Source: Phascolomyces articulosus
Taxonomy: Eukaryota > Mucoromycota > Mucoromycetes > Mucorales > Lichtheimiaceae
DNA length: 64,000 bases
NCBI GenBank assembly: GCA_025677815.1
Contig: JAIXMP010000002.1
Location: forward strand, 248,001-312,000
Direction of reading: 5' to 3'
Part shown: positions 34,513-64,000 of the stretch, one piece after another
Layout of the letters: the number at the start of each line of letters is the position of its first letter
Position numbering within the stretch: the stretch's first letter is position 1
The notes under the pieces: generated by a model
The model's database searches: none
Told to the model about the DNA's origin: nothing
The model's input: only the letters and a program-made list of their open reading frames with translations
Made by a program: the position numbers and the translations under genes

Positions 34513-36575
34513 TTAGTTTATAGACACGTTTTGAAAATCGCTATTGATATATGATCCATGAAAAGTACTAATATTGTATTTTCCAATATCGCATCGAGCC
34601 ATTTCCTCCATGTTGCGTGCATTCAAAATCAATAAAAAGCTACTGTCTTCTTCAGGTGCATTTTTACCCACAATGTTTACCAAACTTATAATAGCCCCCT
34701 CATCTTCGTCCTCATCCTTCTCGTCCTTCTCAATTTTGGTCGCAGATTTTTTTGGGACAAATATGGGTTCCGAACATGAATAACGTGGTTTGTTGTATAA
34801 AACGAGGGTACCTGACTCAAGATTAGCCTTGACTAAAATATATCGCTCTGCTTCTTCCTCTGTGTTGGGTGTTAAAAGTTGGCATCCCCATACATATCGA
34901 TTTTTTCGTAATGCATAATATTGAGAGAATCTTGGGAATTCAATGTTTTGAGCAATGGTCCTATAGGATCCGGTTCCTGTATTAAGGTCGCGATCCCATG
35001 AAAGTTGATAGCGTCTCAAATCACCAAAAGAAGATTGTCGAATAGGTGGAAAACTCATGCCCATGGGCCGTGTTTGTTTTTTTGTTGGTGTTGTGGTCAA
35101 ATGGGATGGGTGATGATATTGGTTTGGTCCACGTAAATAAGTACCAAAACTATGTAACTGATAAACGATATCTGCGTTGGAAAATGCACAAGTATCCAAA
35201 ATAATTGTTGGGTTCCCATTCTCGTCATCGATCGTGTCCCATGCATTGGCATGATGAAAACTGAAAAAGTTGTCAACTGGAATTGAAATTACATGACCTA
35301 CTTCTGGGCTGCGACTGATTATATGAAAATAAGTTGGTGATTTTTCGTCCCATATATAACTACCAACAGCGCTCCCTGAAAACAGTATATCGGCATCATT
35401 GTAATATAAGGGTGATTCAGGAATAATAACATAGTTTTGTGTCAGCATAAATGCGTGGATAAAGCTAGGTCGAATTCTTGTATTACTATTGTTGTTTGTT
35501 CCACCTGGAAGTCGTCGATGGGTAATTTCAGCTAGTATTGTAACGTGTCCTGATCGACTAATGGCAAACACAGTAAGCTTTGATATAGGTCCAAGTTTGA
35601 TGGTATAATTGAATGACTCTTCTGTGATAGGATCATATTGGTGATGTGATGCTGATAAATCTCCATTGAGGCGTTCGTCATAGTCGCCGTAATTATATAG
35701 TCTTTTAGGTTCTGAAGATCGAATTATGTATATATATTAAATTTCCTAATCAGTATTCTTTTAACCCTTATGAATATAATAATCTCATAAAAATAAAAGA
35801 TAAAAATTACCAAGTGTATTTGCATGAACCTGTTGAAGAACATTCAGATCAGTCTTGGAAACTAGATGATATTCGCCAAGTACTTCTTTGGATCGTTCAA
35901 GCCAATGCGTTGGCATAGGAAAATTAGGCGTTGGTGTAACCCCTACAGACGCTGATGACGGGTCTTTACGATTAATAATGCCTGTAAAAACTATTTCTCG
36001 AATACGAGATACTATTGCCACACAACGATCTAAAATCGATAAGTCTTGCACATGACCAAAAAATACAGATGATTTGGCACGTTGCCCAACCAGTTGACGT
36101 TCCAAAGATCCAGCCAAATTTCTTGCATTATATCGTACAGCTTGTTTTTCAGAAGAAATTTCAAATCGATGCATGAAAGGTAGACCATCAAAAGCATGTT
36201 TTATCATATATTTATTCCCATCAAGGGTATATTTTCCAGGACCTGCGTTTAAGTGACATAGATATAGAAAGGTTTAATTTGTGTTTTTATATTCCTTTGT
36301 AAAAACACTTATATTGTATTGTTCAATATCTTTGTTAATAAAAAATGTATTAATTCACTTATTTTACCTATACGATACATAATCCCACTCAACCATTGTG
36401 GAATCGTGCCATGGGTAGGTATCCAGATTGGTTCTGGCACTTCTTTTGCGTTACGAAATACGTTATTTTGTTGGATGTCTTTTATTTGATCTGTAAGTTG
36501 AAAGATTCGTCTTAATGAAGAAACGAGTTTATAACCTCCTATGAAGGCTAATACTGAAAATACAATATATAACAT
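34513..36575 (-). CDS. Carotenoid cleavage oxygenase (RPE65/BCO family), 3 exons, 612 aa
   Basis: A non-haem Fe(II) dioxygenase that cleaves a carotenoid or apocarotenoid double bond. Exons are 36368-36575, 35811-36242 and 34513-35711 (minus), in phase. The four iron-ligand histidines are all recognisable: His236 in SASHHQYDP, His299 in FIHAFMLTQNY, His366 in FFSFHHANAWD and His598 in STFHGSY. The N-terminal half has the family segment HAFDGLPFMHRFEIS. A hydrophobic segment at residues 1-20 suggests membrane attachment. An Asp/Glu-rich loop (about residues 555-570) precedes the last strand. In Mucorales, relatives of this family (for example Tsp3, AcaA and CarS) make the apocarotenoids that lead to trisporic acid sex signals. 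The exact substrate here is not assignable. Confidence 0.9.
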
Positions 36576-37244
36576 AGCTTGTAAATTTAGATGTGGTGTA
36601 AAGAAAAAAGAGAGAGAGAGAGAAAAAAAAATAAGAAAGCTAAATTTGAAGGATGGTTTATGCTGTTAAGGGGGCCAAAATAAATTTCATTGTTCTTGTT
36701 TTTAGGCTGTTCCTTGATCAGCTTGATTCGGAGACCCTGATCACAATATAAATAAATATGGCAACATGTACTATAACAGCAGTTTTGTTTACCAATGAAC
36801 ATATGTTTTATCCACTATTGTTATTAGTTTAACGACATATGCTTATTTTGTTCATATTTTATATGCAGGTTTCTCTTATCATTAGCACTAAGACAACGAC
36901 ATCATCTGTTGTATATAAACTGCAAAAAAAAAGAAGGGTTCAGTTTTGCTTTATACTATCTAACAATAATTATCGGTTAATATTGACATAATAAGTTGTT
37001 ATTTTGTGCTGTGAAATAACATAAAGAGCCTCCGTGATAATTATTGATTATGTTTTTCCCAATTTGATCCACTCTCTAGTATCGATGATGGGTTTGATTC
37101 CCTAATGCACCATAAAAAATGTTTTGGCCGACAGAAGTGTTTTCTGCCAAATTCGGCCAAAAGCTATGTAGTACTAAGCGCTTCTCTAACTCATGGTTGT
37201 ACGTTACCTTGGAGTGTATTTGACATTGATGAGTGTTTATATCA
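36576..37244. other. Upstream region of the carotenoid oxygenase, up to CACTA element A
   Basis: No gene is seen. A GA-rich stretch (about 36605-36635) lies near the oxygenase start. A self-complementary block at 37120-37166 is described separately. Element A begins at 37245, about 670 bp upstream of the oxygenase ATG, so it may alter its regulation. Confidence 0.5.
37108..37166. repeat. Left member of an inverted repeat pair flanking element A
   Basis: Begins CACCATAAAAAA and contains TTTTGGCCGA followed by its own reverse complement TCGGCCAAAA, with CAGAA...TTCTG inside. The reverse complement of 44133-44186 begins with the same CACCATAAAAAA and contains TTTTGGCCGA. The pair could be the ends of an older element into which element A inserted. 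A two-base TG flank on both sides is weak support. Confidence 0.5.
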
Positions 37245-37567
37245 CACTGTAGAAAATAATTCCTAAAAAAACCTAAACTCCTAACCGAAAAACAAGAATT
37301 CGTGTTTTCGGAACATTTTATATCCGGGTCTCAAAAAAAAAACCACAAAATCGTGTTTGTTACAGCTTTTGTGTACATGGTTATTCTCAAATTCGTGTTT
37401 TTCACTTGTTGGGGTTCATGAGTAGTTGTTCAACGTGAAAAAAACCTTATTAGCTTTTTATACGCTTAAACATCGTCTTTTCTAACTTTATTTTTTTTAA
37501 GTTCATATAATCATTTATTTGACTAACCTATACTTTTCGTACTAAACAGCTTTATTAACTTCGTCAA

Positions 37568-40500
37568 TGCCGAATCCAACCAACGATTTTAAGCCATTTC
37601 ACTGTCAGTCGTGTAATCAATCTTATAATCACTCTGTCGAGCGGGTGAATAAAACCCTTCATTTTGAGAGATACGGGGGTGATGAGGATGATTTTCATAT
37701 ATGTGTTCAAAATAAAGTGATTGGCTTACTATGAATGAATATGTAAGTCTATAAAAATTCTCTAACTACTAATATCCTAATATCGAATCAGGGACAAGAA
37801 CCTATCGATCTGTATGAAACTGAGTCTTCAGAGGACGAAGTAGAAAACCTTGGTTATGGATCAATCAGTAAGTTGGTAACAGTATATGAAAGGGCCGAAT
37901 TACCATGAAACTTTAGCAGTGTGATTTAATGTATATTGCTAGTCATTTCTTCAGGAACATCGCATCATCAAATGGATTGAATTCTTCAACACAGCCCTTG
38001 GATGTATCATTTTGTTTGCCAGAAGAATATGCTACTGGCAGTGTTGATGTATCTTTGATGCTATTTCAAATTGCAAAAAAATCAAAGATGGCACGGGAAC
38101 ATTTTGACAAACAAATGAAAGTCATCAATAATTACATTGAATCAGTAACTGAATCGCAACCACCAAAACTTCCACTATATACACACTACAAATGTCGCAC
38201 GCATATCATAAAAAACTCTCCACTCAAACTAACATCGTATGATATGTGCCCAAATGGATGCAAAGTGTACATCGATGGTGATGATTCACAAGAATGCAGC
38301 CACTGTAACGAAAAAGAAAAAAGATATCGAGAAAAGCGCGACAAGTCAGGTACTATAATCAAACAACCTGCAGCCACTATCAAGTAGCTTTCTGTCCTTG
38401 AGCAACTTGCTCTTATGGTGCACGACCTTGAAACCTGCGCATTACTTCGTTATCGACTCAATAGAGATGTGGAATCAGGCACTATGACTGATATATTTGA
38501 CGGCAGTATTTATTAAAAAGCAGCACCAAAGTTTTTCAATACTGAACTTTCAATTGCCATCGGATTATATACGGATGGATTTACCAAGTATCGCTCAATG
38601 ACTATATGTCATTTTATTATTTTGAATTTTCCACCATCCATCAGAACAGAACAAAAGTACATGCTTCAGTCCTGTATAATTTATGGAAAGCGATCCCCGG
38701 TAGACCTTAAAAGTTTTTTACAACCTACAATCGACGAGTTTACAATTCTTCAGGATTATGGTATGAAAGTTAAAACAAAGGATGGTGAATTTTTGGTCAA
38801 AGCGCATATTTTCTTTGCAGGAGGCGATATACCAGCAGTTAGTAAAATGTGTGGTCATGCCGGTCATTCCCATCAGTATGGATGTCGCACATGTTATATC
38901 GACAAGTTTGAAGTATCAGAGTGCAATTACCGGCCAAGAGAACTTCCTGCTGCACCCCGCAAAAGAGAAGATTATGGCCAAAGTTTACCTGAAGTTGGTC
39001 AAAGTCCAAGTATGTTTGCCGCTTTGAAAATACATCATGGTAGAGCATTTTATGTGTTGGACATGATGCATTTACTTTATCATGGCTTGGGAAAACAAAT
39101 AATCCATTTAATTCTGGGAACAGATTTCCTAACGGATAAAGCAACAAAGGGCAACAAAAAATATAACCAAACAAGGAAAGACAAAAAAAAGAAGGATGAT
39201 GATGATGAGACTAAACGAGGACCGTTATTCTTAAGCAACAGCGAACTAAAAGAGGTCAACAAGTGGATACAGAAAGCAGCCGTAACCCAACCATCAAACT
39301 TTTCCTGTGCCATCAGTAGTTTAACTACAGAGAGTAAAAAAAGGACAAATAGCAATTTTCGAGCAGTAGACTACATGTATTTTTTGCTCTTCTTCCAACA
39401 ATTATTAAGGATACCATCCAACCTATACATCGTCCAGCAGTTTTTGCACTATCAAAAATTGTTCAAATTGGAGCGAGTCGATCGATAACGCGATTGGATA
39501 TTGATGAACTTGAAAAAGCAATTAAAAACTGGCATTCATGGTTGATGGATCAGGTTGACGATAAACTTATTGCGCCTAGAATATTTTCAATAACGCAACA
39601 CTATTTAACACATATGTCATATTTTATTGAAAAGATGGGTCCAATGCCTTTTTATAGTGCATTTGCACAAGAGCGAGCAATTGGTGGAATTAAAGCGCGG
39701 ATCACATCACGACGAGATACTGGAACAAATGCTGGTAATTATATATTTGATCAATGCATATCTACTGATATCAGTATATTAATTATTTTATTATATAGCA
39801 AACGAAATGCTTAGCCTTGCTTCAGAAAGGCGTAACGAACGGATCAGTAATGGTAATAATGAAGCAACCAACTTATCTGCTTTCCATGCTCTTACAGAAG
39901 CTGAAACATCCGTCTCTGAGGATGAAAAAGATCCAGATAGTCCCGAACTTTGGTCACCATTTAATGAAGAGAAATTACAGGAACTATCTTCAAAGTATGG
40001 ATTTAATGTTGTTGAAAAGGTATATTTATTATGACATAAAATTGTGAGATAGTTCCTTATAATATGAAATAATGAACACAGAAGTTAACACGAAGCATTA
40101 TATACCTTAAATAGACTCGTCTTTATTACAGAGTGTTTGAAAGAAAGGAAGTAATGGTTGGACCAAATGACAGAGTACAAGTTGGATATCGTGTGTGGAG
40201 AAGCGATGGATTAGGCAAAAAAACAGGGCTTCGAAATGGAACTGTCTATGGATCCTCGTATAAGCATGGATCTTCATTACGAAAGAATAATGTAGTTAAA
40301 CTTTGCCTAGAACTTAACACCAATAGACAACGCAACAATAAGACAAATTCTGTAGCACTGACATACTTTGGAGAGGTTTCTGCATACTTTTGTTACGAAG
40401 TCGATGACAAAAAAAGTGTATTGGCTATGGTAAAGTTATATCAAGCAGTAGGTAGTGGTGAACCCGGTTCATGATCATATAGAACAGAAAGTGCAGCAGT

Positions 40501-40665
40501 AAAACATGTAGTTGTCAGTGTGTATGATATAACGGGTATTGTTTGGTCAATTGAAAGCCCAGCATCGTCACGATATTACTTGTGTTCAGTTGACGATCCC
40601 GGTAGAAAAAAGATAAAAAGCTTTGAAAGCCATAGCAAAAAAAATAACAAAAGATATATTAGGAA
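37568..40665 (+). pseudogene. Tnp2-like CACTA transposase of element A, interrupted
   Basis: It starts with MPNPTNDFKPF and a Cys/His zinc-binding-like segment (CQSCNQSYNH). It then shows CACTA transposase features: MCPNGCKVYIDGDDSQECSHC, a segment YTDGFTKYRSMTICHFIILN, GGDIPAVSKMCGHAGHSHQY with GCRTC, LDMMHLLYHGLGKQ, and a DUF4218-like KMGPMPFYSAFAQERAIGG. Introns are visible, for example ending before ANEMLSLA at 39799. In-frame stops at 38385 (TAG), 38514 (TAA) and 40472 (TGA), plus a frameshift near 39405-39450, break it. Each stop is one C-to-T change from a sense codon (CAG, CAA, CGA). The C-terminal YFGEVSAYF domain matches the end of the element B transposase. Confidence 0.85.
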
Positions 40666-42912: not shown

Positions 42913-43263
42913 GTGATGAATAAAAATAGTAGTAAATGCACTTATTACACAAATATATTACTTGATTATATCTATAAAGAATATAAATCGTTTGGTGATA
43001 GTATAACATGTTATTTTTTTCTATGCTAATAACAATAATGATATTGTGTGGTCGCTGTAGGAAGTGAAGCATCCATATACCACTGCCAGGTACGTATTGG
43101 ATGGAAGATTCCTATATTCTCGGCAGCTGTCCGAAAGGATGTACGTATTACACGTGTAACCTTTGTTAAGTAGGATTTGTCTTCCATGAATACTTAGGGT
43201 TTTTTTTTTAGGTTTTTTTAGGTTTTTTTACGAGCATTTTCGTGTATTCCTTTTTCTACAGTG

Positions 43264-44360: not shown

Positions 44361-44769
44361 GTCAATATGAAAATAAAGAGTATTCAGGATACTCCTGTAG
44401 AAATGTTTAAATTTCGAGAAGTATGAAGTATCATATCTGTTACTCCAACACAACTCACTCAATGGGGAGTTGAATGTAAATTATTATTTCATAATAATTG
44501 GTATACGCATAGTGTTTTTATAGAGTTACGCAAGGGAAAAATTACGGTATAATCCTACCTGCTGGAAAGCTGCCTGTCGTTGACCATTTTTTATCATCTA
44601 CTCCTAAGCCAATGGTACCGATTGCAAGCAATATCACTGTTATTATTTTAGATCCTATTACATTAATGGTTTTGGAGTAACCACGACTGAAGAAGTTGGC
44701 TATGGGTTTCATAAATTTTGCATTACCAATGAGTGTGAAACAACTCTTATTAAGAACGATATTGTATAA
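44361..44769 (+). pseudogene. Fragment of an MpaB-like oxygenase gene (last two exons)
   Basis: VNMKIKSIQDTPVEMFKF (from 44361) matches VNMEMKDIPDTLEAMIKF of the intact gene at 51759-53345. An intron-like gap ending in TTTATAG follows, then at 44524 SYAREKLRYNPTCWKAAC matches SYARNKVRYNPTNWKVAK. After a frameshift come VDHFLSSTPKPMVPIAS and ILDPIT. The intron sits at the same place as in the intact gene, so this is a DNA-level duplicate, not a retrocopy. It is on the opposite strand and lacks the first three exons. Several frameshifts make it non-functional. Confidence 0.75.
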
Positions 44770-44828
44770 ATAAATTGAATCCTGAAAGGTTTAAACCTTT
44801 TAAAAAAAAGTCCTGTATCATATTAGAA

Positions 44829-45818: not shown

Positions 45819-48800
45819 CTATAATCTATTTCTTACTCCCAGGGTCTCTTGGTGATGCTTTCCGTTTACCATCCCTGGCCAAATTAAATGTTGCCTGAAT
45901 ATCTGATTTCCTCTTGTTTCAGTGACAAGACCAACGAAGTCAGTTATTGACTCTGTATCTACTATATACATCTTTTCTGTACTTGATTGAGTTAAATACA
46001 AGGATCCTGTAGAATTTTCAACTAGAGGTTGGTATATCCCGATAATGGCCAACTTTTTGGTGCTGTCGATAATTGAAGTACTTCTCGCTTTAGCATATGT
46101 AAAATAGAAGTAAACTTTGCCAAAATATGCTTTTTTTTCGAAGATCACACTTGAATTTAGACCGCGCCGCGCTCTCCTATTTTTTAATTGTAAAAATTCA
46201 TGTTACTCTGGCTGCTTTTATTGGCGTAACTGCAGTATTATAATACCTGTCAACATCTATCTCTAATCGCACCATGTATGCCATCCGTTGCTTTGAGGTG
46301 TGATGCAGTATACTGGAGTAGACATTGTGATTGAACCACAGCTGCCCACTGATATGAACATCTGTTGTGGCCCCTGTAATATCGCCAGTTTCATTTATAC
46401 GTGTACGGTATGTTTCAAGAGCATCACAAAAAACTTCTTTGGTGACACCTGCAATTGTATCTGCATATTCATCCAGTTTCAGCCTTTTAATAGTACTCCA
46501 TAATTCTGGAGCTGTACCATCCTGCTTTTCCCCGTATTTCCATGATGGCTCTGTTGATATTTCGTTACACTGCTGCAACTCTGGATTGTTATTTTCAGAT
46601 CTATCGTTTTCGACAACTGTATCTACATATCGTGCTCTGGCCAACGAAAGCATAACGTTAGATGCATTTATTCCAGGGTTAGTGGTGGAATTTATATGTT
46701 GCTTATACCATCCAATCATACGTTCTAAGCATCGTGCACTATAGTAACGCAGTGGTCCCATTTTCAAAATCATTTCAGGGATATGCGTTAAGTAATGTTG
46801 ATTCGCTGTAAATATTGATACTGAAATAACTTTGTCGATTTGTATAAGCTTTTTCAAATATGCATGCCATTGGTCTAAACCGCTAATATATATCATAAAT
46901 AAATTAGTTTAGGATCATTCTACTTTGACTAAATATTTTCACTTACGTGCGGATAGTTTCAATATCATTTTCATGTATCGAGTATTGTAGAGACAGCTGA
47001 CATGAACGAATAAGACCCAAAAGTTTCATCTTTGCTATATCATTCTTAATATGAGGTGCAATGAGTGTAGGTACAATATACAGCATGAAGTCAAGCCAAT
47101 CAACAGCTCTATTTTGCGATTGGCCAATCAAGCTATAAAAGTTCCCTTCGAATGCAGTTGGTATTTGGTTTCGCGAATATTCCATATCGTTCATGACTTT
47201 TTGAATAACGTCTCTTTGAATATCGAAAGGATTAGATTTTGCTACGTTGTTAACATGAGCGACTGTATACTTTCCAGAAAATAACTGGAATAATTGCTCT
47301 GCAATACTATGCCCAAGTAAATGCATTTCGTCCAGTCCGTAGAATTCTGGCCCTTTAAAGCTTTTCAAATCTGCTAAAAGAGATTTTGCTGTGATACCAG
47401 GCTAAAAGAGTAATTAACATGAAAATTTACTACGTAGTAAGATTATGTGCTGATTTAAATAACATAAAGTTACATATATATATGTATATACTTACTTCAC
47501 TCTTATTCTTATATCCATCTTTTGTACGCCATGCTGCAGACAAGTCAGGAAAATACATCCCACCTCTATTGTTACCATCAGGATGAATCCCTTTTACCAA
47601 ACACAAACGACATCCATAAAACGACATGTGTCCATTGTGGCATGCTAGTGCTGCTACACCAGGTATATTACCAGTTGCCAAAAGAAGGTGTACCCGCGCA
47701 CAAATATGTTTATTATCAGAGGTATGTACTTCCATTCCTTCACTTTGCAATATCTCCAACTCTTTCATTGTGGGCTTTAGGAAGCTCCAAATATCGTTTG
47801 GTTTACGTGGACCCGGAATTAGACATATCTGTAACATATTATTTTTTTCATATCTATCATATATACAATAAGTGATTAGTTATAACCTTATCCCTCTTCT
47901 ATGATTTTTCCTACTTTTGATCACTTTATAATAGCTTTTATACCTGATGGATGGATCCAGATTCAAAATTGTGCAGTGAATAATAGTCATCTTATACCGA
48001 GAATTTTTATCGAAAGGACGGAATGCATCTGCATAAAGCACTACGGCAATATCATACTCTCCAGTAAACAAATCATGTCTCATGCTTTGATATACTGATC
48101 CATCCAAAATATCACAAAATACTCCTTCAGTGTGAGTATGTGTATGTCGATAATTTAGAAGTTTACGAGTGTCTGGATTGTACAATAAATATGCAAGTTG
48201 GGAACCTAATGGAAGCTGTTCGATAGTTGCACGTGGTAATGAATCTGATCCTTCGATATATCTTGGTGTGGAACATTCGTCACATGTAAGGCTTGAATCA
48301 TCTTCATTATACATCTTACATCCATTTTCGCACATATGATAGATTGTAGGTTTTACTGGATATATAGTTTCCATTAAATCCTTTGATCGATGCATTGAAT
48401 AGATGTGTTCGTGAGCTGTAATATAAATAAAACGTTAGAGGTTTTATAAAGGATTTTCATTGGGAATTTACCTACATGGATCAATGCTTGTTATAATTTC
48501 GTTCATGAGTTTAATATACTGTAGGTGAGCTGCTCTTGAATTTGGGAAATTCTCATAAACTCTTTGAGCTTTTAGGCTTATTATTTCTGTGGCTCTTAGA
48601 GTAACACCATTCTGAAAATCATATCTTAGTCTTGCACTGTTACTTTCTCTGTTTTCTACTTACAAAAATCAACTAAAAATTAGACGTATAATATTCTGAC
48701 CTATTCAAAATATAATATGCATACCATTTTCGTTTATTATCTCCTCTACGTGTTCTTGTTGATTTACTCGATGGATATTCATTGACTCATCTTGATCATG

Positions 48801-49262
48801 ACTAATTACTGAATCGTTCAATGGAAGATTGTCAGCTGTAGTATTTATTTCTGTGATATCATTATTAGTAGACGATTCGCTATTTTCACGTATGAATTGA
48901 TCATCCAGTTCGTGATGTTCTCGATTGATTCTTGAATGAGATCTTATGAAGTGCTGTTCCTGCATTTGGCTATTGTGCACCGGTTAATAATTTGGACGTT
49001 GTCGATACGAACGGAGAAGTATGAGAAGATATTACCTCGAACCTGAACGTGAGTTTGTGCTTGAGCTTGAGCTTGAGCTACTACTACTATGGTTATTCAA
49101 CTTTCTTTTTTTCTGTCGGTGTGCCTGAAGACAGGCATTCGCATGAGTGCGAAAATAATCCTTGAGCACTTGTTGACGACACCAACCACAAGTTATTCTT
49201 TCTGTAGTACTTAATGATTGTTTTTGACGTTTACGATATTTGTTTGGCAAACCAAAAGTCAT
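45819..49262 (-). CDS. CACTA transposase (Tnp2-like), 8 exons, 973 aa, open reading frame intact
   Basis: Predicted to bind and cut transposon ends. Minus-strand exons are 49036-49262, 48725-48969, 48476-48646, 47944-48415, 47496-47853, 46947-47401, 46247-46882 and 45819-46176; all phases agree with no stop. The N-terminus has a zinc-finger-like CGWCRQQVLKDYFRTHANAC and a Ser/Arg tail. The core has MCENGCKMYNEDDSSLTCDEC, YADAFRPFDKNSRYKMTIIH, LIPGPRKPNDIWSFLKP, CHNGHMSFYGCRLC, GLDEMHLLGH and the DUF4218-like KMGPLRYYSARCLERMIGW. The end is the AYFGKVYFYF domain shared with element A. The last intron (46177-46246) is inferred to rejoin that domain; without it the protein would end at 46198 with 870 residues. 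One oddity is GNIPG where element A has GDIPA. Confidence 0.85.
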
Positions 49263-49333
49263 TGTGAGTATGGTTTATAAAAGGAAAAAAGAGTGATGTT
49301 AAAGTTTGCAGTAACAATGAAAATATAGTAACA

Positions 49334-49434
49334 ACAATGCTACGGAACACGTCTTTAATATAACGCTGCGGAACGCGTAGTTGTACCATAACGCTGTGGA
49401 GCGCGTTTTCGTATCGTAACGCTGCGGAACGCGT
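49334..49434. repeat. Four tandem GC-rich 19-bp units at about 28-bp spacing in the divergent promoter of element B
   Basis: Units at 49334-49352, 49360-49378, 49388-49406 and 49416-49434 share ATAACGCTGCGGAACGCGT with few changes. Three spacings are 26, 28 and 28 bp. They stand out in very AT-rich DNA and sit between the transposase ATG (49262, minus) and the accessory ATG (49554, plus). A protein-binding array controlling both genes is a reasonable inference. Confidence 0.85.
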
Positions 49435-49553
49435 AACATATTAATACAAAAGAAGTTCTGAACCATCACGTCATTATATCTCTCTTTTACTTGTTTATTC
49501 TTTTTTTCTCTTTTCTTTCTTCTTCACTGTTTTTTTTATTCTTTTATTTTATA

Positions 49554-50931
49554 ATGGCACCGCTTTCCCGTACTAATATCAACAGCCTACTCGATAATAT
49601 CCAATCCATTGCTCAAAATGTTAACGCTCTCACGGACAAAATTAATCAAATGCAAGAAAAACAAGAGGAACTAAGCAACTCCTTATCAACCATTATCCAA
49701 ACTCAAGATGAAATGCGTCTGATCATAGAGCAGCTTGCTTATGCACAGGACCAAGAACTGGAAGATAATTTGGAAGATGAAGTTGTACAACCTACTGTAA
49801 ATGTAATAAGGGACATTGATCGTCCATTCCGAGTTATGAATGGCAAACGACGTGCACTTAATTTGGACGTCACTACCATTGAAGAAATGATACAACAAAA
49901 AATTTTTCAAGGTGACCATGTAGCAAGCAGTAATGCAATTGTAAATATGCACGCTGCATTAATGGACTGCATTAACAACCTTCGTAACACATTACTAATA
50001 ACTGACTACACAATTGCTTGGAGTGATATTGACCCGACCCTACAGCTTCAGTCTATAAAGCAGTTTGAGGATAGCTTAGTGCCTCTAAACATAGGTCTCA
50101 ACAGATGCAAAAATTCATGGGCTGCTTCCTACCTTGTGGCATATAGATGGGGATATCTTTTCCAGTACCGCAAACGTAAAACGAATCTACAAAGTATATT
50201 ATCAACTGTGTCGTGTCCGTAGGAAAAGAATACGCCAAATAGGTGTATCTAAATTTAAATGAGGAAAAAAAGAATAAATAATAAATAAAATAGAATAACG
50301 CCATTATTATGAAATGGTGTGAATTAGAACTATATACCAAATAAGGTATAATGTTCAACAATAAAGAAAATAAGAAATGAATAAACGCCCTCTTAACATA
50401 AGGCGTAAATTAACAATAACAAATATCAATCCTCATCTCTATGGACTCATATAAACACGTACCCGACAATAGATAAATAATTAGAAATAAACACCTCATC
50501 GAAAAGTATAAAAGGACCTCAATTTTATTAGATAGTTTGATCATCACTATTTTTTATTAAATAAATCTATATAACAGACTCAACGTATTCTTATCGTCTT
50601 TATTTTTTCGATTTTACTACCTTTTATATTTTTCACAAACTGCTCAGGTACAGTAATGTATAGTATTAGATTTTACTTTTTTAAAAACGATTGTCATATC
50701 TATCTCACACAATTTCCAAAGGAAAATGAAAATGAAAATAATAACAATACAGATGAATCAACGGCTTCTTCACCAGATGATGTGATTACTAGTTCAACTA
50801 ACAGGTAATGTTAATTTTAAAGTATAATAATTTAATACTGGATGGACTACTAACTTTCCCCTCTATATATAATGAATTATAGTAACGATAATCAAAGTCG
50901 CCCTTCTCGCCGTCGTCGTCGTTTCCATTGA
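49554..50931 (+). CDS. Coiled-coil accessory protein of element B, 3 exons, 284 aa
   Basis: Exons 49554-50218, 50664-50804 and 50883-50931 join in phase and end at TGA. Residues 1 to about 70 form a strong coiled coil (SLLDNIQSIAQNVNALTDKI and the following Gln/Glu-rich heptads). An acidic linker (QELEDNLEDE) leads to a helical domain of about residues 105-220 with RCKNSWAASYLVAYRWGYLF. The tail is Asn/Glu/Ser-rich and closes with SRPSRRRRRFH, a likely nuclear signal. The first intron (50219-50663) is unusually long; if it is not spliced, the protein ends at 50222 with 222 residues. The layout matches the broken accessory gene of element A. No known family was recognised. A DNA-binding or oligomerising partner of the transposase is inferred. 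Confidence 0.7.
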
Positions 50932-51758: not shown

Positions 51759-53345
51759 TTAGTGGGCTAAAGGGCATTTTAATGGTTTAAGCTTTTCGGG
51801 GCCCAATTCATAAATACAATATCCTTCTGGATAAGCTGTTTTACGCCCATTATAAAGCACCTTATATCGATTATTTCCATTTTTCGAATTTGGTTTGACA
51901 GGTGTATACGTCACAGGAGTAGATCGTGGCAACATAAGGTAGTACACAAATTGTGCATGAGATAGAAATACAAAATTGATTAAATATATAGCCCAGGTCT
52001 TTGGTGATGGTAGTCCAAAACCATCGATATCGATAGGATCCAAAATAGCAATAAGTATATTTTTTGCAATTGGTGCCATTGCTTTAGGAATATATGATAG
52101 AAAGTGGTCGATGACAGACTTGGCAACCTTCCAGTTTGTAGGATTATATCGTACTTTGTTTCTTGCATAGCTCTATAATCATTGTTATTAGAAATTCACA
52201 AAAAAAGCAAGCATACTCTATTATACTTTGTGTGCTATATTAATACTACTGGATTAAAAAATATTACATATACCTCTTGGAATTTAATCATTGCTTCGAG
52301 TGTGTCCGGAATATCCTTCATTTCCATATTAACGCCTATATCATACCAGATTCGAAAGATAGCCTATGTTTATTAAAGTATATTGTAACCATTATGAAGT
52401 ATAATAGAGATGTATACATTACGTTAATGTTTTCTTCGTGACCAGCATGGTTCTGATTAAATATATACATGGTTAAAATTTTCAACAAGCTTACATTTAT
52501 TTCGATTGGTTCCAACTTCCTCCAACCATACTTGTTGATCCATTTTATAGGTTCCAGGATGAAAAGAGAAAGAGTGTATATATAATCATCGTTCAAAATA
52601 GGATACTTGCTATGAATTTCATTTAATCGTGTGATTGCAGCAATTGGACGTCTTCTCTGTTCGTTAATCTCTTTCTGGGATAAATTGGGTGTTTCTTTTC
52701 TCAACTGCTCTATATGTGCAAATGCTTCAACTGCTTCTGACTTTATTATTTTTATCACGAATATGAATATTTTATAAGAAAGAAAATGTCAGATAAACAA
52801 TAAGCATGTCAAAAAATTGTATATTTATATAAACTATATTGGATAAACATATTTACCAAAATAAGACCAGTATCTTCCGTGCGTTTAAGCGGTCTTTTGG
52901 ACATTTCACCAGTTGCATGTAGAATTTTACTAATTGTGGGAATTGCAAAAGTCTTGAATAGTGCAAATTCATGAGAAAGATCAAAAAGAACTTCAAGTTT
53001 TTTTTTTAAAAAAACCATTCTTTGCATTAGTATTTATTTTATTTATTAACTGTTATGATTAAAGTATCGTTCATTACATGGAAATTCTTTGCGTGCTGTA
53101 GTATCATATACTTCTTCAGCAACAGATAAACTTGAAAGTGCTATTGTAGGATTCATGTATTTTCTTTTCAACTTTGCAATACTTTGGTGTCGAGCATAAC
53201 GAACCAATATAAGATAACCAAATACCAAAAAAATAATTGGGGTAGTAATCGCAATCGTTGTCGTATCATAAAGAATGTAGTTACTACTGTAAATATATCG
53301 AAATTTTAACATTAGATTGGAAAGAGCTTGAGTAGATAGGGGCAT
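51759..53345 (-). CDS. MpaB-like ER-bound oxygenase (MpaB/rubber-oxygenase family), 5 exons, 407 aa
   Basis: Family members are haem enzymes that oxidatively cleave isoprenoid carbon-carbon double bonds: MpaB cuts a farnesyl side chain in mycophenolic acid synthesis and rubber oxygenases cut polyisoprene. Minus-strand exons are 53078-53345, 52857-52990, 52423-52740, 52274-52363 and 51759-52172, in phase. A transmembrane segment lies near residues 33-52 (ITTPIIFLVFGYLILV), consistent with ER anchoring. Then come the family segments EFPFLFDLSHEFALFKTFAIP, ITRLNEIHSKY, DDYIYTLSLFILEPIKWI, DIPDTLEAM and RYNPTNWKVAKS. Length is normal for the fungal subfamily. A broken copy of exons 4 and 5 lies at 44361-44769. 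The substrate is unknown, but the neighbouring carotenoid oxygenase and prenyl synthase suggest an isoprenoid. Confidence 0.82.
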
Positions 53346-54296: not shown

Positions 54297-56005
54297 ATGA
54301 ATAGCTACATCAGCAAAAAACGAACTTCCACTTTATCTACTGCTTGTCTGGAAAAGACAACATCTGTTGTAAATTTTTCAAAAAAAGTGAAAATATGTGG
54401 TTCAAAAACAGAATCTTCCAGCAACTTGGATTCGACTAAAATTGATATTGTTAATACAAAAAGCAATAACAGTAATGGTACTCCAGACTACATAAAAGAG
54501 GTTTGTAAAAAAATATACAAGCCCGTGTCTACAAATGCATAGCAATATATATTTTTTTTTTAAAAAAATAGGTATTAATCATATCTATACTTTTTAATTG
54601 TTAGATTCTGCTAAAGCCATATAAATATCAGTCTTTACGATCATCAGGAACAAATGTTTTTAATCAATTCATTGATGCATTTAATGTTTGGCTAAAAGTT
54701 CCAGAAGAACGCCTTGCAATTATTAATAAAGCATCTGAATTGATGTTTCATGCAGCAATAATGTATATCAGAATACAACCAATTTTTCAGCAAACAAAGG
54801 TGGTTAACAAATGATTAATTACAATGCTTACGTTCAATGTATATTTTCTGAAAACTATAATAGGCTGGATGATATCCAAGACAATTCTCCTGTGCGAGAT
54901 GGTGAACTTGCTGCCCATTCCGTCTTTGGTGTAGCTCAAACTCTCAATTGCGCTAATTATTTGTGTTTTTTGGCGTTGGAGGAAGTTCGTAAAATGGAAA
55001 ATCTGAAAGCAGTTGAAATATTTTCTGGTACATATTAAAAGGCACATTACGTGTCAAGTGCGAAGAGCCTGAAATGTTTTTTTCGACCTATCTACTATAG
55101 ATACCACACCATACTCATCATCAATATCTTCTATTTTGTAACATATTATAAAAAGGTGAAATGGTTAACCTTTATTCCAGTCAAGGTAAATTAACACGAT
55201 TAAATTAATAAAAAAAACTATTCATAACGATTAATTATTTTATATTGGTATTTGATAAACGATAGGCATGGATGTTTATTGGCGTGATACAGTAACCTGT
55301 CCAACAGAAAAAGAATATTTTGAAATTGGTTTAGACAGTAAGTGTTTTGTTTACTTTAGTTTATATGTAATGAGCAATAATTTGTAGTGTGTTAAAATTA
55401 TATAATAGAAACAGTTGGCCATGTACGCATGGTTGTACGATTAATGCAAATCGAAAGTGTTTCCGAAACGTAAGTTTGTTAAATATACTTCAAGATGGTT
55501 TTGTTGTTAATTGTTAATATTTTCCTTTTGTTGTTATTATATTTATAGTGACTACACTGGTCTGGTGAGAAAACTCGGAATTCATTATCAAGTTTTGGAT
55601 GACTATATGAGCCTCCAGTCCAAACAGGTAAATATTAATCATAGTTTATATATAACTTATATTATATAAGTATATACTAATATACATTCAAAAAAGAATG
55701 CTCAGGATAAAGGTACATTTTGTGAAGATATTGAGGAAGGAAAATTTTCCTTGCCAATTATTCATTCAATCCAAGCAAATCCTCAAAATCGACAAGAATT
55801 ACTTGATATCTGGAAGCAGCGCACTAAATCCATGGAGTTAAAGCAACATGCGTTGAAATTACTTGAGGGTACTGGTTCTTTTAGCCATTGCCGTAAATTT
55901 CTCGAAGATCTTGAGCAGGACATAAGAAACGATATTCAAAAATTTGGAGAAAACGCTATTCTTGAAAAGATCATGAACACTGTCAGTATTCACAAGATTA
56001 AATAG
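54297..56005 (+). CDS. Geranylgeranyl diphosphate synthase-like polyprenyl synthase, 8 exons, 358 aa
   Basis: Condenses isopentenyl diphosphate with an allylic diphosphate, normally to C20. Exons are 54297-54500, 54605-54762, 54864-55027, 55156-55185, 55266-55337, 55409-55469, 55549-55627 and 55697-56005, in phase. The first Asp-rich motif is DDIQD (residues 123-127) and the second is DDYMS (247-251). The segments AHSVFGVAQTLNCANYLCFL, GMDVYWRDTVTCPTE and GTFCEDIEEGKFSLPIIHSI match fungal GGPP synthases. The usual Arg-Arg after the first motif reads Arg-Asp (VRDG). The first 68 residues are Ser/Lys/Asn-rich and absent from typical enzymes. It may be a pathway-specific paralogue or a changed-function subunit; both metal-binding motifs are kept. 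Confidence 0.9.
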
Positions 56006-56317
56006 GTATTCCGGCATATATTTATTATTGATTTTTCATGATATACAGTTTTCCTGATAATTATCATAAAACTAATAATTATATAATTTATATTAGTCAA
56101 TCAAAGATTGTTATTATAATATACTATATGGTTCTATACAATCAATAATATCTTCAATCCCTTATTATTTTTATATAATTGAATAAATTTATATGTACGC
56201 ATTTTGATTTTATAAAATATAATAAATTGATTATATGACCTATTTTATTTAGCGATATAGGGAGTGTTAAATTATTACTTTTATTATAATGAGGGTGTAA
56301 TATAAGTAGTAGATGTA
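56006..56317. other. Intergenic between convergent genes
   Basis: Short AT-rich 3' region shared by the prenyl synthase (+) and the decarboxylase-like gene (-), with several AATAAA-like words. No gene is seen. Confidence 0.5.
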
Positions 56318-58057
56318 CTAGTGATGATAGGCTTTTGAATCTACATATATTATTTTTGGTCTCTCAAAACCCGAAAAATGACAAGTGGTGATTGCATACG
56401 CTCCTAAATTTTCAGCATATATCCAATCTCCTATATTTAAAAGTGGAAGCCGTGCATTCTCTGAAAGACAGTCCCCAGGTTCGTCAGTATGCCCCCAAAC
56501 TCTGGATGAAAACTTTTGTTCGTTATTATGACAATTTCCATAGGTACAAACACCATTTTTCATCAATACTAACATATAGAGTAGTTTAATATATAATACT
56601 ATTACTATGGTAGCGAGGAAAAAACAACTGCGAAATTTAAGATGATATCTTACCTCTCAAATCAATCACATCACTGTAAAATAATCGTGTTGCAAAAGAA
56701 GAATGCAAAATATCATTAACATAATCTATCAATAGTTACAATGGAAGAATATTATTATCAATATGAACTTGACCAGTGATTATGATGTTTCTACTCCCCA
56801 GTCTTCAGCGATGATGCATAATATAATCATTTCTTTTATTTTTATTGTGCTACAATAACTTACATGCGTACGTTTTATTTCCTGTATCACTATCATCATT
56901 ATCTTCATTTAGCTCGGATAACAGCTTTCGACCAACTACTTGGCAGCATACAGTCAATGTAGAGGTTGCATAATAGCGCCCAGGCTCTGCAATGACTTGG
57001 ACATCATGAGGGAAAAGCTGATCTACAGCTTCTCGGATTACAGAAGTAATCTGTTCAAATGTTGGTTTTCCCGGATAATCGACTCCGAAAAATCCACCCC
57101 CAATATCAAGTAAGTTGCAATTGAATCCAAGCTGTTTTGCACGATCAAAGATAATGCGTGAGTTTCGTAAAGTATCATGATAAGCACCAGCGTCGGAACA
57201 TCCGCTGCCAACATGAAAACTACCACATGTAAAATAAAAATCGCCATGATTACATACAGTACTATACATTTAACTATATTATTGGATAAAATGACTATTA
57301 TCTATAGTTTTTACGTACCTAACACCCACTATATTCAAATCCAATGTTTTTGCGGTTTGCAATAGATTATCAACATCAGCCATAGGGGCTCCATATTTGA
57401 GTCCAATACCCCACTTAGCTTTTGAATCATCTGTAAGAATACGTAAGAGTAATTCGGCATTTGGATACAGTTTCTTGGTTTTATAAAGTTCATCGACACT
57501 ATCAAAGGTCATTTTACGCACCCCATTCTCAGCAGCAAATTGGAGATAAGAAGCTTGTTTGCACGTATGGGCATAGATGATGTTAGATGGATCAGCACCA
57601 CACTGCAATGCCTTCTGAATTTCGAACCCACTGGCGCAATCAAAACCGACTCCAAGTAATGTCAAATATTCAAGTATTTTTTGATCAGAATTGCATTTGA
57701 CCGCTAATAAAGGGTGTGAAAAAAAATATAAATACAAAACATAACTAAAACATAACTAATAGAGAACTTGGTCATAAATTTATTCTTACCGTAATAAGGC
57801 TTAATTCTAGGAAGACATCTTTTCCATTTTTGATGCTGACGATACAGTTGGCCCAAATCAAGAACAAAGAAGCAATCATCTTGTTCAATATGGTTATTCA
57901 AATTAACCCGAGATTCTAGTTCGTTTTTGATAATATATTTGATATAATCTGTTCTGCTTGTTACGGTATTATTATTAGAAAGCTGTAGCTGTGCTTCTTT
58001 ATTATCAAGAGTTGCTTGCTGTAAATTCGAACCGTATGTGAATGGTTTGATAAACAT
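56318..58057 (-). CDS. Ornithine/lysine decarboxylase-like PLP enzyme (fold type III), 5 exons, 443 aa, altered active site
   Basis: Minus-strand exons are 57790-58057, 57319-57703, 56864-57219, 56654-56725 and 56318-56568, in phase. The cofactor site is intact: the Schiff-base lysine in PYYAVKCN (Lys92), CASGFEIQ, SFHVGSGC, DIGGGFFG and AEPGRYY. The end has NLGAYAITTCHFSGFERP, as in eukaryotic ornithine decarboxylases. Two conserved places differ: YYVNDG is YYVNDI, and the catalytic Cys motif WGPTCD is WGHTDE (residues 385-390), so the usual Cys and the following Asp are replaced. Classical ornithine decarboxylation is therefore doubtful. It could act on another amino acid or serve as a regulatory, antizyme-inhibitor-like protein. 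Its place among isoprenoid genes suggests a specialised role, which is inference. Confidence 0.85.
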
Positions 58058-59625: not shown

Positions 59626-62047
59626 TTAAATTAGACGATTAGAACGTTCGATAAAACGGAGGTTTTGTTGAAAGGGGGCAAACGTAAGTCCACCATCATG
59701 ATAAGCATTTAAATCTGGTAATACTGGATCTCCGTTCTGTCCCAATGGAGCTTCGATCTGAGTAGTTGCTAGGATGCGTACCCAAAAAATAAACAGCTCT
59801 ACATCAGACTATTATAATAATATATTTAGCACATATAGAGCAAAATAATTAGCCACGTATATTTTATTTAAGCAAAGAAAAAATAAAACTGACCATGTGA
59901 ACACCTGGGCAAAGTCTCCTATCAAATTACCATGATATAGCATAATATAGTCAATGGTTAACCAGTCTTCGAAACCGAAATTTCTACTACAGTAATATAG
60001 TTATACTTGTAGAGTAGTAATATTTTCTATCTTACCTTCCCCAGCCAAAAACAAACTGATCTCGAGTTTTTACGCTTGCGTTCACAGAAACTGATAAGGG
60101 TCTTTGATCATTCATGTAACGCTCTGGTATGAATGCCTTTGGATCATCATAAAATTCCTCGTTAAAGTTCATTGTAAAGGTGTTGGCCAAAACTGCTGTA
60201 CCTTTAGGAATGATGTACCCTTGATATTCAACTAATGGTATTATTATTTATATTTAATAACACACCATACTATGAATAATGTAAAGTTAATAAAACGTCT
60301 ATTATTATTAATTTACCATCTTCTGTTGTTTCATGTGGGAGGCACAAAGGAACCGCTGGTCGATATCGAATACATTCTTTTTGTACTGAGAGCAAATATG
60401 GAAATTTTTCTCGTTCTTCAAAAACAGGTAATCGACCATAATCTGAAATGAAACCATCAATTTCTTTTTGAAGTTTCTTTTGGACATCCTTGTGATGGGA
60501 TAATATAAGAAATGCCCACGACAATGTAATCGCTGTCGTGTCTGTGGCGGCTTCTAATATGTCAACTACAACAATTATATATATATTATTTCAGTAATGA
60601 TAGCACAGCCAGGAATCGAAAGTATAGATTTCTGCTTCTGTATCATAATAGAGTGTATTTTTTCTTATTACCTATAAAGACAAGAATGTCATCATCCTCC
60701 AAATCATTTGCTTCTTTTAATTTATAAATTTCCTTGATAAAACAGTCAGGTTTATTGGAAAGAGCATTCTTGATCAGCCGTTGAAAATATGGATTTCGTT
60801 TTTCAAAGATAAAATTTTTCATTTCATCCTCATTATCGGTAAAAGTACGAATAAGCTTTGATAAACCAGGAAAAAACGTTTGCAAATCTTGCTCTGGAGC
60901 ACTAAATCTGATTGATGTATCGATGTAATCAATCATTGTCTTGCCTAATGGATCATCCAATGTTTTAGCTCTTATGCCAAGACATGTTTGCATAATGATA
61001 TTGAGTGTTCCCAACTGCATCAATTTAAAGACATTGGTGTAACCATGCTTCCTGGTGTCTGCCAGTAGAAGTTCTATTGTTTGGATGGCTTCGAAATTGA
61101 TCATATCTGTTTTACTAGCAATAGCCTTTGGTGTGAGTAAAGCTTGTGCTACATATAATATATGTTTAAATGCCATTTTGTTAATAAAAACAATACTATT
61201 TCTAATAAACTACATGATGATTGACCCATACCGATTGCTCGACATCTTTTCCATCGCTTGTCTGGATGTGTAAATACTAAGCCCCTAGAGACGAAAATGA
61301 AACAGTGAAATAATACATTATAATAATTAGTGTATACATTATATATTTTTGTAAACGTTCATTATAAGTTTTGTTACCTTTCATTGAGTGCACCGTATTT
61401 AGACATGTAAAGATGAAAAGGTCTACCAGAAGTTACGGCGCCTTTGACTTTAAGAATATCATTGGCAACATAAGGATCACCAATAAGAACCCACTGTTTC
61501 ATACCAAGTTTTATACGGATTAATGGACCTATAACAATTGTTTTCGTTGAGTTATACAAGTTAAATGATAAATTATTTTATGTTGTTGATTACTAAATTC
61601 ATCCACACAACAACACATCTCTCCATTTAAATTTCAGTAACTGACCATATGTTTTATGCCATTCATCAAATTTAAAAGCAGCAAATTCTTTAGGAACGCT
61701 AAAAATATGGCCTAATATGTTAATAAAATAAAAAATGGTAAGTCATAATTATCATTATTTATATAATAGCCGTCTTATTCTTGCTGAAAAATGATATAAC
61801 AATAAAAATTACCAAAGTAAGGAATAGCGTTTGGTAAAAGTGGAACTTGTTTTAAATCCTTCTTGCTGTAATTTTTTTTTCTTTTACTTTGCGTATTCCT
61901 CTGAGAAGAAAAAGTATAATAATAGTATATGCTGTAAAGAGTGAAACCCGTTGTAAGAGTTAATATAGTAATTGGAACTATAGGGGAGAAACCATTATTC
62001 GGTCTTGAAAATCTATTTCTAATGGTATCAACTATACTATCTGACAT
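59626..62047 (-). CDS. Microsomal cytochrome P450, 9 exons, 540 aa
   Basis: A haem monooxygenase that takes electrons from an ER reductase. Minus-strand exons are 61813-62047, 61646-61711, 61378-61528, 61232-61284, 60672-61148, 60317-60565, 60036-60231, 59894-59918 and 59626-59796, in phase. An N-terminal anchor (PITILTLTTGFTLYSIYYYY, about residues 24-43) is followed by a basic stretch and a Pro-rich hinge. The I-helix reads EAATDTTAITLSW, the K-helix ExxR is ECIR, then PERY, and the haem loop is FGWGRRLCPGVHM with Cys479 as ligand. The loop is split by two introns around a 25-base exon. All catalytic landmarks are present. Fungal P450s hydroxylate apocarotenoids in trisporoid synthesis as well as many other lipids; the substrate here is not known. 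It faces the NmrA-like gene head to head. Confidence 0.92.
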
Positions 62048-63220
62048 TTTTGTAGTATTTTTAACGGGAATAAGCTGTAAAGAAAAATTAGAATTAATCT
62101 ACATCACTTTTCAAATTGTAGTGTAGAAATCTACCATGAGAACCGTCAAATTAATAGCGATAGATCATACGATGAGAAACTGTAAAAGTTGATATTTATG
62201 CTTCTTAGTACTTTATTATTTATCCACTCCCGGTAACTATCTTAAATTATATCGCCTACTATATGTTGCTGCATAGTGGCATTAGCTGCATGAAAAAAAA
62301 ATTGGGGCAGGGCGGTCACTTACTAGAAACAAGAAGTGCCATAAGCTAATGAGGCGAAAAGTTAGATTATTGCGTAGAAACTTTTATTGCAATCCACAGT
62401 ACGGAGCCATTTTTTTGCCAACAACTTCAAGGGGGGTGCCAATAATACTGCCCCTTTTTTCAAATAACAGTAGTTCTTCCAACTTTATATACAATATTAT
62501 ACTCTTTAGTAACTTAACAATTCTACAGCAACTCACTTCTCTCCTTTATTTTGTAAATACTCCATATTTCCACTGCGATTACTTATAAGGTTCAAAACAT
62601 ACTTGTTAACCTTTTACTTGCGACGACAGTTGTGATAAATGATTGCTCCATTGTTTACACTTAAATAGGGAGTATGAATAAACAATACTGTCATGCAATG
62701 CATTGATTATAACATAGTTTGGTTCGGACACATCATAAAGCTTTTTTTTAAGGAAACTGTCGACACCCTATCAGCTGGGTTTTAAAAATAGGTGTTAGCA
62801 GTTAATACTACATTATTTCTAATGGGTGGCATCAGGAATAAGAACAGTAAGTCATCAATAATGATGGCCTGGTATAAAGGTAAAGAAATATTATTTTTTT
62901 GCATTAAATAACTTCATGTAATATCATATGGGCATCCAGTTTATTTTACACAGAAAAAAGTGTTGTTATAGCTTCATATGAAATATGATATATGGTTAAC
63001 AATAGCAATTAATAAATGAAGTGATTGTTAAGAACATAGTAACATATAAGTGCTATTTTACTTTTATCGCCATGTTATTAATATATATATAAGAAAATAA
63101 ACTATTATAATTTATTATACCCACGGGTATGTTTGTTTGTTTTTGATTGCATATAAATTAGCCTCGAACGTTTAAAAGTATATTCTTCACATTTTTCTCC
63201 TTTTTATACAAAAAATAAAA
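62048..63220. other. Shared upstream region of divergent P450 and NmrA-like genes
   Basis: 1.17 kb without a gene. It is AT-rich; a TTTTTATACAAAAAATAAAA tract immediately precedes the NmrA-like ATG. The head-to-head layout repeats that of the MpaB-like and prenyl synthase pair. Confidence 0.5.
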
Positions 63221-64000
63221 ATGGTGACAGATAACCATGAACGTGTGTTTGTTTTGGGAGCTACAGGAAATGTCGGTTCTGCTGTGGTAGAAGAGCTCAT
63301 CAAGCAAGGTGCCCTTATTACTGTTTATACCCGTACACCTAAAAAAATCAATGAATCTCCGGGAACGACAATTATCCAAGGTGAATATACTGATCTAAAA
63401 CCATTTAACGAGGCTATTCAAGGACATTCGCGGTTATTTTTGATTGTCCCGGAAATCGACGATATGGCCAGCATTAAGATAGATATTGCCAAAACTGCAT
63501 ATGAAGCTGGTGTCAAACAAATTGTCCATGTGTCTGCGAAATCTGTTCCTTGGCGCCATTATCAAGCTGCGTTGCCATTCCAAATAGCTGAAAAAGCCAT
63601 TTACAACCTTCCCAATCGTAATGGTGCTGGTTTTGTAAGTCTTAGGCCTTGTCCTTTTATGACCAATATTTTGTTTACAGTGGACACTATACAAAAGCAA
63701 AATACTTTTATGGATCCTGCGGAACCGGATGAATTGCAAGAATGGATATCTCCCCGTGACGTTGGGCAAGTCGCAGCCCGTATTTTGCTTGATCCAGTTG
63801 AAAAACATGGTGATGTCGCATACGAATTAGTGGGTGATGTACAATCTCCAGAGAAACGGGCTCAAATGCTGACCTCGGTATTGGGCCGTAAAATCGAGTA
63901 CACGCAAGTTTCTTCAGAGACACTGTATGAGATGCTTCTACAAGTTGGATTCAGTCATGCATTGGCATTTGGTGCAGCAACTCATCAAGATAAAAATCCA
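63221..64000 (+). CDS. NmrA-like NAD(P)-binding (atypical short-chain dehydrogenase) protein, 3' end beyond window
   Basis: An open frame of 260 codons from ATG 63221 to the window edge, with no intron seen. It begins MVTDNHERVFVLGATGNVGS, where GATGNVG is the Rossmann dinucleotide-binding motif of the NmrA/SDRa family. It then shows the family pattern YTRTPKKI, LIVPEIDDM, VKQIVHVSA, LRPCPFMTN and the WISPRDVGQVAARIL segment. The catalytic Tyr-x3-Lys of classical dehydrogenases is not evident, so it could be a redox sensor or regulator of nitrogen-response type, or a reductase such as an isoflavone-reductase-like enzyme. It is divergent from the P450. The C-terminus is missing only because the window ends. 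Confidence 0.88.
   Translation, partial: MVTDNHERVFVLGATGNVGSAVVEELIKQGALITVYTRTPKKINESPGTTIIQGEYTDLKPFNEAIQGHSRLFLIVPEIDDMASIKIDIAKTAYEAGVKQIVHVSAKSVPWRHYQAALPFQIAEKAIYNLPNRNGAGFVSLRPCPFMTNILFTVDTIQKQNTFMDPAEPDELQEWISPRDVGQVAARILLDPVEKHGDVAYELVGDVQSPEKRAQMLTSVLGRKIEYTQVSSETLYEMLLQVGFSHALAFGAATHQDKNP

Follow-up and report, generated by a model that had tools for sequence, protein, structure and literature searches.

Do the isoprenoid-type genes assembled in one stretch of the Phascolomyces articulosus genome (Mucorales, Lichtheimiaceae) belong to a single biosynthetic cluster and, if so, what kind of product would it make? The window analyzed here is a stretch of 64,000 nucleotides (C23:248001-312000, on contig JAIXMP010000002.1; a window coordinate plus 248000 gives the C23 coordinate) from a genome of 47.4 Mb in 110 contigs. 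An original prediction had joined six of its genes into one pathway: a carotenoid cleavage oxygenase (CCO), an MpaB-like oxygenase, a protein resembling geranylgeranyl diphosphate (GGPP) synthases, an enzyme resembling ornithine decarboxylase (ODC), a P450 and an NmrA-like protein. An isoprenoid-type biosynthetic cluster is supported by our analysis; the supply of a prenyl precursor and the apocarotenoid product that were predicted with it are not borne out. We propose instead, with a probability of about 0.5, that some 24 kb of this region form a specialized-metabolite cluster making an oxidized and possibly nitrogen-bearing terpenoid, in which the GGPP-synthase-like protein would act as a terpene synthase of the isoprenyl diphosphate synthase-like (IDS-like) type.

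Extent and gene content of the cluster

Genes were spliced by hand from reading frames and GT-AG sites, and the reading was extended past the window end. All six predicted genes are present as open spliced models with predicted GT-AG introns, some at weak junctions, the NmrA-like gene being intronless. The dense part of the cluster covers about 24 kb, from 51.76 kb to about 75.3 kb, and runs beyond the window end at 64000. At its left lies an MpaB/Lcp-like haem oxygenase on the minus strand (51759..53345; 383 aa in five exons, 53345-53078, 52990-52857, 52740-52495, 52363-52274 and 52172-51759). It is followed by the GGPP-synthase-like gene on the plus strand (54297..56005; eight exons including a 30-bp microexon at 55156-55185; PF00348, E 5e-47) and, on the minus strand, by ODC1, an ODC-like pyridoxal phosphate (PLP) enzyme (56318..58057; five exons; PF02784, E 1e-80), and P450-1 (59626..62047; nine exons; haem motif FGWGRRLCPG). 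The single-exon gene for the NmrA-like NAD(P)-binding protein crosses the window end on the plus strand (63221..64090, the latter being C23:312090; PF05368, E 2e-21). Two gene pairs are head to head, as predicted: MpaB and the GGPP-synthase-like gene, with 951 bp between them, and P450-1 and the NmrA-like gene, with 1173 bp.

The gene group is real and larger than the window shows, so the right half of the cluster was missed: beyond position 64000 lie four more genes on the plus strand, three of them intact and one truncated. These are ODC2 (65264-66982), P450-2 (68069-70534), a truncated copy of a 2-oxoglutarate (2OG) oxygenase (roughly 71020-71905, with limits set by eye) and an intact 2OG oxygenase (73558-75295), the intact genes again as hand-spliced models. 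Magnesium-transporter-like and proton-ATPase-like genes, recognized by eye, lie to the right of the intact 2OG oxygenase.

The models of ODC1 and ODC2 are identical to NCBI proteins P0040 and P0037, respectively. The weakest of the chosen junctions are those of P450-2 exons 6-7, MpaB exons 1-2 and 2OG oxygenase exons 1-3; the MpaB junction is the weakest among the six predicted genes. In a Pfam run on eight of the nine intact models, seven scored above their cut-offs and MpaB fell below. P450-1 was outside that run and is identified by exon matches to PF00067 and its haem motif.

To gauge the grouping against chance, we merged matches into loci across the genome, which gave 6 prenyl synthases of all kinds, 9 ODC-like genes, 14 2OG oxygenases, 23 NmrA-like genes and 9 MpaB loci (including a relic in the window and a partial match on C13); the number of P450s was set at 75, an estimate based on the 116 exon matches obtained when 92 of the 291 candidates were scored. 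The six families other than the CCO fell within 24 kb of each other in 0 of 20000 random placements on the 47.4-Mb genome, and a prenyl synthase, an MpaB and an ODC did so in 1 of 20000. Because placement was uniform and the family list was picked after the cluster had been seen, these figures show only that random placement fails to explain the grouping.

Loss of the IPP site in the GGPP-synthase-like protein

In GGPP synthases, the diphosphate of isopentenyl diphosphate (IPP) is bound by K, R, H and R, which we take to be its ligands. All four are lost from the GGPP-synthase-like protein, where they read T, F, F and D, and each is invariant in all 32 of the aligned homologues whose sequence spans it (34 of the 36 matches were aligned; P0032 and P0036 were left out). 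On the opposite side of the active site, all 11 of the allylic and metal residues that were tabulated are intact in the alignment, and the first Asp-rich motif (FARM) and the Mg/allylic residues are retained within the PF00348 fold. The predicted fold is likewise intact (mean predicted local distance difference test score, pLDDT, of 87), as modelled for the NCBI protein, P0001. That model omits the 30-bp microexon, which restores an E..NL..QG stretch of the homologues. Replacement of all four ligands sets the protein apart from GGPP synthases of the CarG type; it is 42.5% identical to the pieces of a GGPP synthase on C89, which retains GKDIR and RRA. Since the IPP ligands are all lost and the allylic and metal side is intact, the protein probably does not make GGPP, which contradicts the predicted supply of a prenyl precursor.

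Terpene synthases related to prenyl synthases have been described. In a Melampsora GGPP synthase, a change of Arg81 to Pro led to a loss of coupling, and (E)-nerolidol was made; the authors equate Arg81 with the Arg of KKxR in an insect farnesyl diphosphate (FPP) synthase (Wei et al. 2020, PMC7484799). By our own mapping, it would correspond to the Arg of GKxxR. The Phascolomyces protein resembles these IDS-like terpene synthases in its GGPP synthase-family origin, its retained FARM and, under that mapping, its replaced GKxxR-type Arg. It further resembles their NDxxS forms in that the Asn of the second Asp-rich motif (SARM), present in 33 of 33 homologues, is a Ser. In contrast to Melampsora, it comes from another phylum, lacks in addition the K, the H and RRG's second Arg, carries DDxxS in its SARM, and has P450, 2OG oxygenase and ODC-like genes as cluster neighbors. 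NDxxS was the motif of the first screen by Wei et al., and a Melampsora protein whose SARM is conserved still acts as a terpene synthase (PMC7484799), so NDxxS is a screening mark rather than a strict one. Outside fungi, an enzyme from sandflies whose IPP-binding residues are substituted acts as a diterpene synthase (PMC12376265), and some termite terpene synthases derive from GGPP synthases (PMC13143122). The available part of a paper on non-canonical terpene synthases holds nothing on a GGPP-synthase-like enzyme of this type (PMC11234867). A PF19086 search of the genome for canonical terpene synthases gave no match, but its control matched nowhere either.

Elsewhere in the genome, a divergent GGPP-synthase-like gene at C35:409936-410358 has intact IPP ligands, and TNDFLG replaces its second Asp-rich motif.

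A divergent pair of ODC-like enzymes

ODC1 and ODC2 share with ornithine decarboxylases and their antizyme-inhibitor-like paralogues two Pfam domains and, in both proteins, the PLP-binding Lys69. Among 25 aligned sequences (of 120 matches listed; 24 in a midpoint-rooted tree), they group with Zychaea P0038, P0041 and P0042 and Circinella P0039 and P0043 (100/100). Fennellomyces P0047 adjoins this clade (100/99, under the midpoint root), and within the aligned set the subfamily is found only in Lichtheimiaceae. Position 358 is His in 8/8 subfamily members and Pro in 17/17 other ODCs, and position 361 is Glu in 7/8 members and in 0/17 others; P358H and D361E together, found in 7/7 members from Phascolomyces, Zychaea and Circinella, distinguish these seven from ornithine decarboxylase. 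Positions 360 and 361 read D and E in ODC1 (motif GHTDEPGD, with the catalytic Cys360 replaced by Asp) and C and E in ODC2, in place of the Cys360/Asp361 of the substrate site, and ODC2 has Asn for Asp88. Further changes occur in relatives: in Zychaea P0041 the PLP Lys is replaced by Gln and His197 by Asp, and the two Circinella proteins are altered at positions 88, 274 and 332. P0042 groups with ODC1 (94/94), and the tree gives P0041 no definite position within the subfamily.

ODC active sites are shared across two subunits (PMC4595762), and planarian ODC paralogues show complementary losses of Lys69 and Cys360 (PMC5574924). By analogy, an ODC1/ODC2 heterodimer is possible. The location of both genes within a terpenoid-type cluster is a further departure from ornithine decarboxylase. 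A parallel is found in the loline alkaloid cluster of Epichloe, where an ODC-like decarboxylase likewise occurs with a 2OG oxygenase and a P450. To our knowledge, that cluster contains no prenyl enzyme or MpaB.

Prenyl synthase genes adjoin ODC genes at two other loci (C22:424960-427918 and C30:67542-70573), as if an ancient pair had been duplicated. We considered a recurrent prenyl-synthase/ODC module on C22, C30 and C23 and rejected it: the C22 and C30 synthases are COQ1-type by eye and their ODCs are canonical, so that a duplicated housekeeping pair is likelier. Two more tandem ODC-like genes, at C65:31537-35365, lie in a context other than that of the cluster.

The MpaB-like oxygenase

The window MpaB matches PF09995 with E 6e-4 and 20.3 bits, below the 23-bit cut-off, and retains 29 of the 30 residues invariant among 19 homologues. 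The family profile is itself sparsely matched in this group: three of the 19 carry PF09995, including the two most distant, and paralogue P0159 and relatives P0157 and P0161 give no match at E 0.05. A PF09995 search of the genome found no MpaB locus, against nine merged loci by protein query, because it misses the short exons of split genes. The best database match to the window protein is 58% identical, so the gene may be unannotated. A PDB sequence search with MpaB returned a single chance-level match (E 1.6).

Structural comparison was made through P0159, the C22 paralogue, which is 54% identical to the window MpaB and was modelled at a pLDDT of 88. Latex clearing protein (Lcp) and t-anethole oxygenase are both alkene-cleaving haem enzymes. 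The P0159 model matches t-anethole oxygenase with E 5.6e-5 (template modelling, TM, scores of 0.57/0.69) and Lcp with probability 1.00 and TM scores of 0.46/0.47, the latter at E 0.02, beyond the 0.001 level. The modelled paralogue thus places an Lcp-type haem oxygenase fold in this MpaB family.

C22 also holds three tandem MpaB paralogues, then a 2OG oxygenase and a P450, all within 38 kb (548169-561261, 570805-571245 and 585657-586223), which may be another cluster. That it is a second copy of the present one (C22:548-586 kb) is unsupported: its P450 is 33% identical to P450-2, and its 2OG oxygenase 41% to that of the cluster.

The carotenoid cleavage oxygenase and the left flank

The CCO gene (34513..36575, minus strand; three exons; PF03055, E 2e-77) encodes all four of the histidines that, by alignment to a solved enzyme, we take to be the iron ligands. 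It is separated from MpaB, its nearest partner, by 15183 bp. This gap holds a tnp2-type transposase gene (37917..40471, plus strand; PF02992, E 9.5e-16 at 38517-39485) and a second one lying in several frames (45822..48434, minus strand; PF02992, E 4e-7 at 47433-47879), the outer limits of both set by eye. The original claim that no unrelated intact gene intervenes holds for the eight open reading frames of the gap that were scanned against Pfam, among which only PF02992 rose above cut-off; the remaining frames of the gap were outside the scan. Between the two transposases, on the plus strand, lies a decayed MpaB exon (44553..44780, outer limits by eye), in which 44573-44728 is 48% identical to MpaB residues 265-316 and contains one internal stop. 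This relic suggests that the gene group once extended further left, so that the CCO is a possible member.

Membership of the CCO in the cluster is nevertheless unproven, and no observation ties it to the other genes. The genome has seven CCO loci, of which it is one; its identity is 44% to a pair on C56 over the larger piece, with 39% to C58 and 30% to C89. We judge the left edge of the predicted cluster to be misplaced, and a pathway containing two cleavage enzymes is likewise unproven; an apocarotenoid or trisporoid product, which rests on this distant gene, is unsupported. The C56 pair (16544-18365 and 47961-49785) lies about 31.4 kb apart and shares 97.9% identity across 2.5 kb, as a recent segmental duplication would leave it.

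On its other side, the CCO is bordered by tandem repeat-rich genes. Repeat blocks 70-72% identical to one another occupy 30469-34113 in two tandem minus-strand genes, leucine-rich-repeat-like by eye, the longer of which has no Pfam match. A gene at 25653-29283 encodes VBS_C3G9 and GIT1_C domains (28393-29283) and is Spa2-like by eye.

Relatives and published clusters

Contigs of relatives were matched by their length. Judged in this way, two members of the ODC-like subfamily, Zychaea P0042 and P0041, share one contig of 395496 bp. None of the 19 MpaB matches, six of them from the four species with the subfamily, lies on the subfamily-bearing contigs (395496, 302344, 345666, 1130698 and 1313056 bp), so by this comparison the MpaB linkage is not conserved.

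In the literature searched, mostly without subscription journals, we found neither a published description of this gene combination or of such a cluster in Mucorales nor P. articulosus by name. Terpenoid clusters of fungi and terpene synthases of the IDS-like type are each known already; the gene combination seen here is undescribed in that literature. A close comparison is with the terpene-type candidate clusters of Mucoromycotina reported by Koczyk et al. (2021), who found GGPS genes across Mucoromycota and a conserved cluster consisting of carRA and carB (PMC8070225). Unlike the present cluster, theirs are discussed without decarboxylase, P450, NmrA or MpaB appearing as terms in the main text.

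Proposed pathway and alternative explanations

Under the proposed terpenoid pathway, GGPP or FPP would be supplied by housekeeping synthases encoded at other loci. The GGPP-synthase-like protein would bind and ionize this allylic diphosphate through its intact Mg/DDxxD side, without addition of IPP, and, acting as an IDS-like terpene synthase, would release a terpene skeleton. P450-1, P450-2, the 2OG oxygenase and the MpaB-like protein, as a putative alkene-cleaving haem oxygenase, could oxidize the skeleton, and the NmrA-like protein may perform a reduction. The ODC-like pair would supply or modify an amine whose parent amino acid is not ornithine, and might work as a dimer, with the catalytic Cys missing from ODC1 being provided by ODC2. 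The sequence shows the genes, how they are ordered, their open frames and the lost residues; that they serve one pathway, that the GGPP-synthase-like protein is a terpene synthase, that an amine is handled and in what sequence the reactions run we infer from it.

Several observations weigh against this proposal. The SARM reads DDYMS and so departs from the NDxxS screening mark; Terpene_synth_C gives a weak match that falls short of the cut-off (E 0.001 with the hand model, 0.045 with P0001); and the C35 paralogue, which groups with the GGPP-synthase-like protein in the tree (96/94, long branches), retains its IPP ligands. ODC2, which would need to give a complete half-site, carries the Asp88 to Asn change. 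No close orthologue of the GGPP-synthase-like protein was found among its 36 matches (best non-self identity 53%) in a lossy search that also missed the organism's own C89 GGPP synthase. Together with the lack of MpaB linkage in relatives, this suggests that the full gene set may be peculiar to P. articulosus.

The enzyme might alternatively transfer GGPP or FPP to an acceptor other than IPP, such as the amine or amino acid of the ODC-like pair, to give a prenylated amine or terpenoid alkaloid. PaxC, an enzyme of indole-diterpene synthesis, is a model for such transfer. A lost IPP site beside an intact allylic site is as compatible with a new acceptor as with a cyclase, the ODC-like genes lie 312 bp and about 9 kb from the GGPP-synthase-like gene, and MoeN5 provides a precedent for a trans-prenyltransferase fold with an unusual acceptor (PMC7839719). 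We regard this as unlikely. An elaborated form, which we consider quite improbable, would have an early-diverging fungus make terpenoid alkaloids: a former GGPP synthase without an IPP site would join or cyclize a prenyl group with an amine from an ODC-derived, two-gene heterodimer sharing one active site, and the product would then pass to the two P450s, the 2OG oxygenase and an MpaB-type cleavage step.

The genes might also serve no single pathway, the region being a gene-poor, transposon-rich stretch that gathers duplicated and partly dying metabolic genes, with the GGPP-synthase-like protein and ODC1 as pseudoenzymes or regulatory subunits. The truncated 2OG oxygenase, the MpaB relic, the losses of Cys in ODC1, Asp88 in ODC2 and the PLP Lys in Zychaea P0041, and the unlinked MpaB genes of relatives are all consistent with such decay. 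Eight genes nonetheless have open frames and GT-AG splice sites, although certain sites are weak; co-location is far above random placement; and the losses in the GGPP-synthase-like protein are one-sided, affecting 4/4 IPP and 0/11 allylic or metal residues. We consider this explanation doubtful. The originally predicted pathway, in which true GGPP supply and two cleavage oxygenases including the CCO lead to a trisporoid-like or other apocarotenoid signal, draws on the four histidines of the CCO and on the relic at 44.6 kb as a sign of a once longer gene group. It is very improbable given the lost IPP ligands, the 15.2-kb gap with two transposases and the seven CCO loci. Moreover, known trisporoid steps use CarS and AcaA (PMC5133782), neither of which the CCO can be assigned to, no CarS or AcaA sequence having been compared.

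Implications

Beyond the Dikarya, fungi were for a long time regarded as incapable of producing secondary metabolites, but opinion is now changing (PMC8070225). If the proposed terpenoid cluster is real, terpene synthases would have arisen again from prenyl synthases, outside rust fungi and insects, and an enzyme of this kind would be missed by searches for canonical terpene synthases or for NDxxS. The ODC-like subfamily, in turn, makes it directly testable whether an amino-acid decarboxylase has been recruited away from polyamine synthesis.

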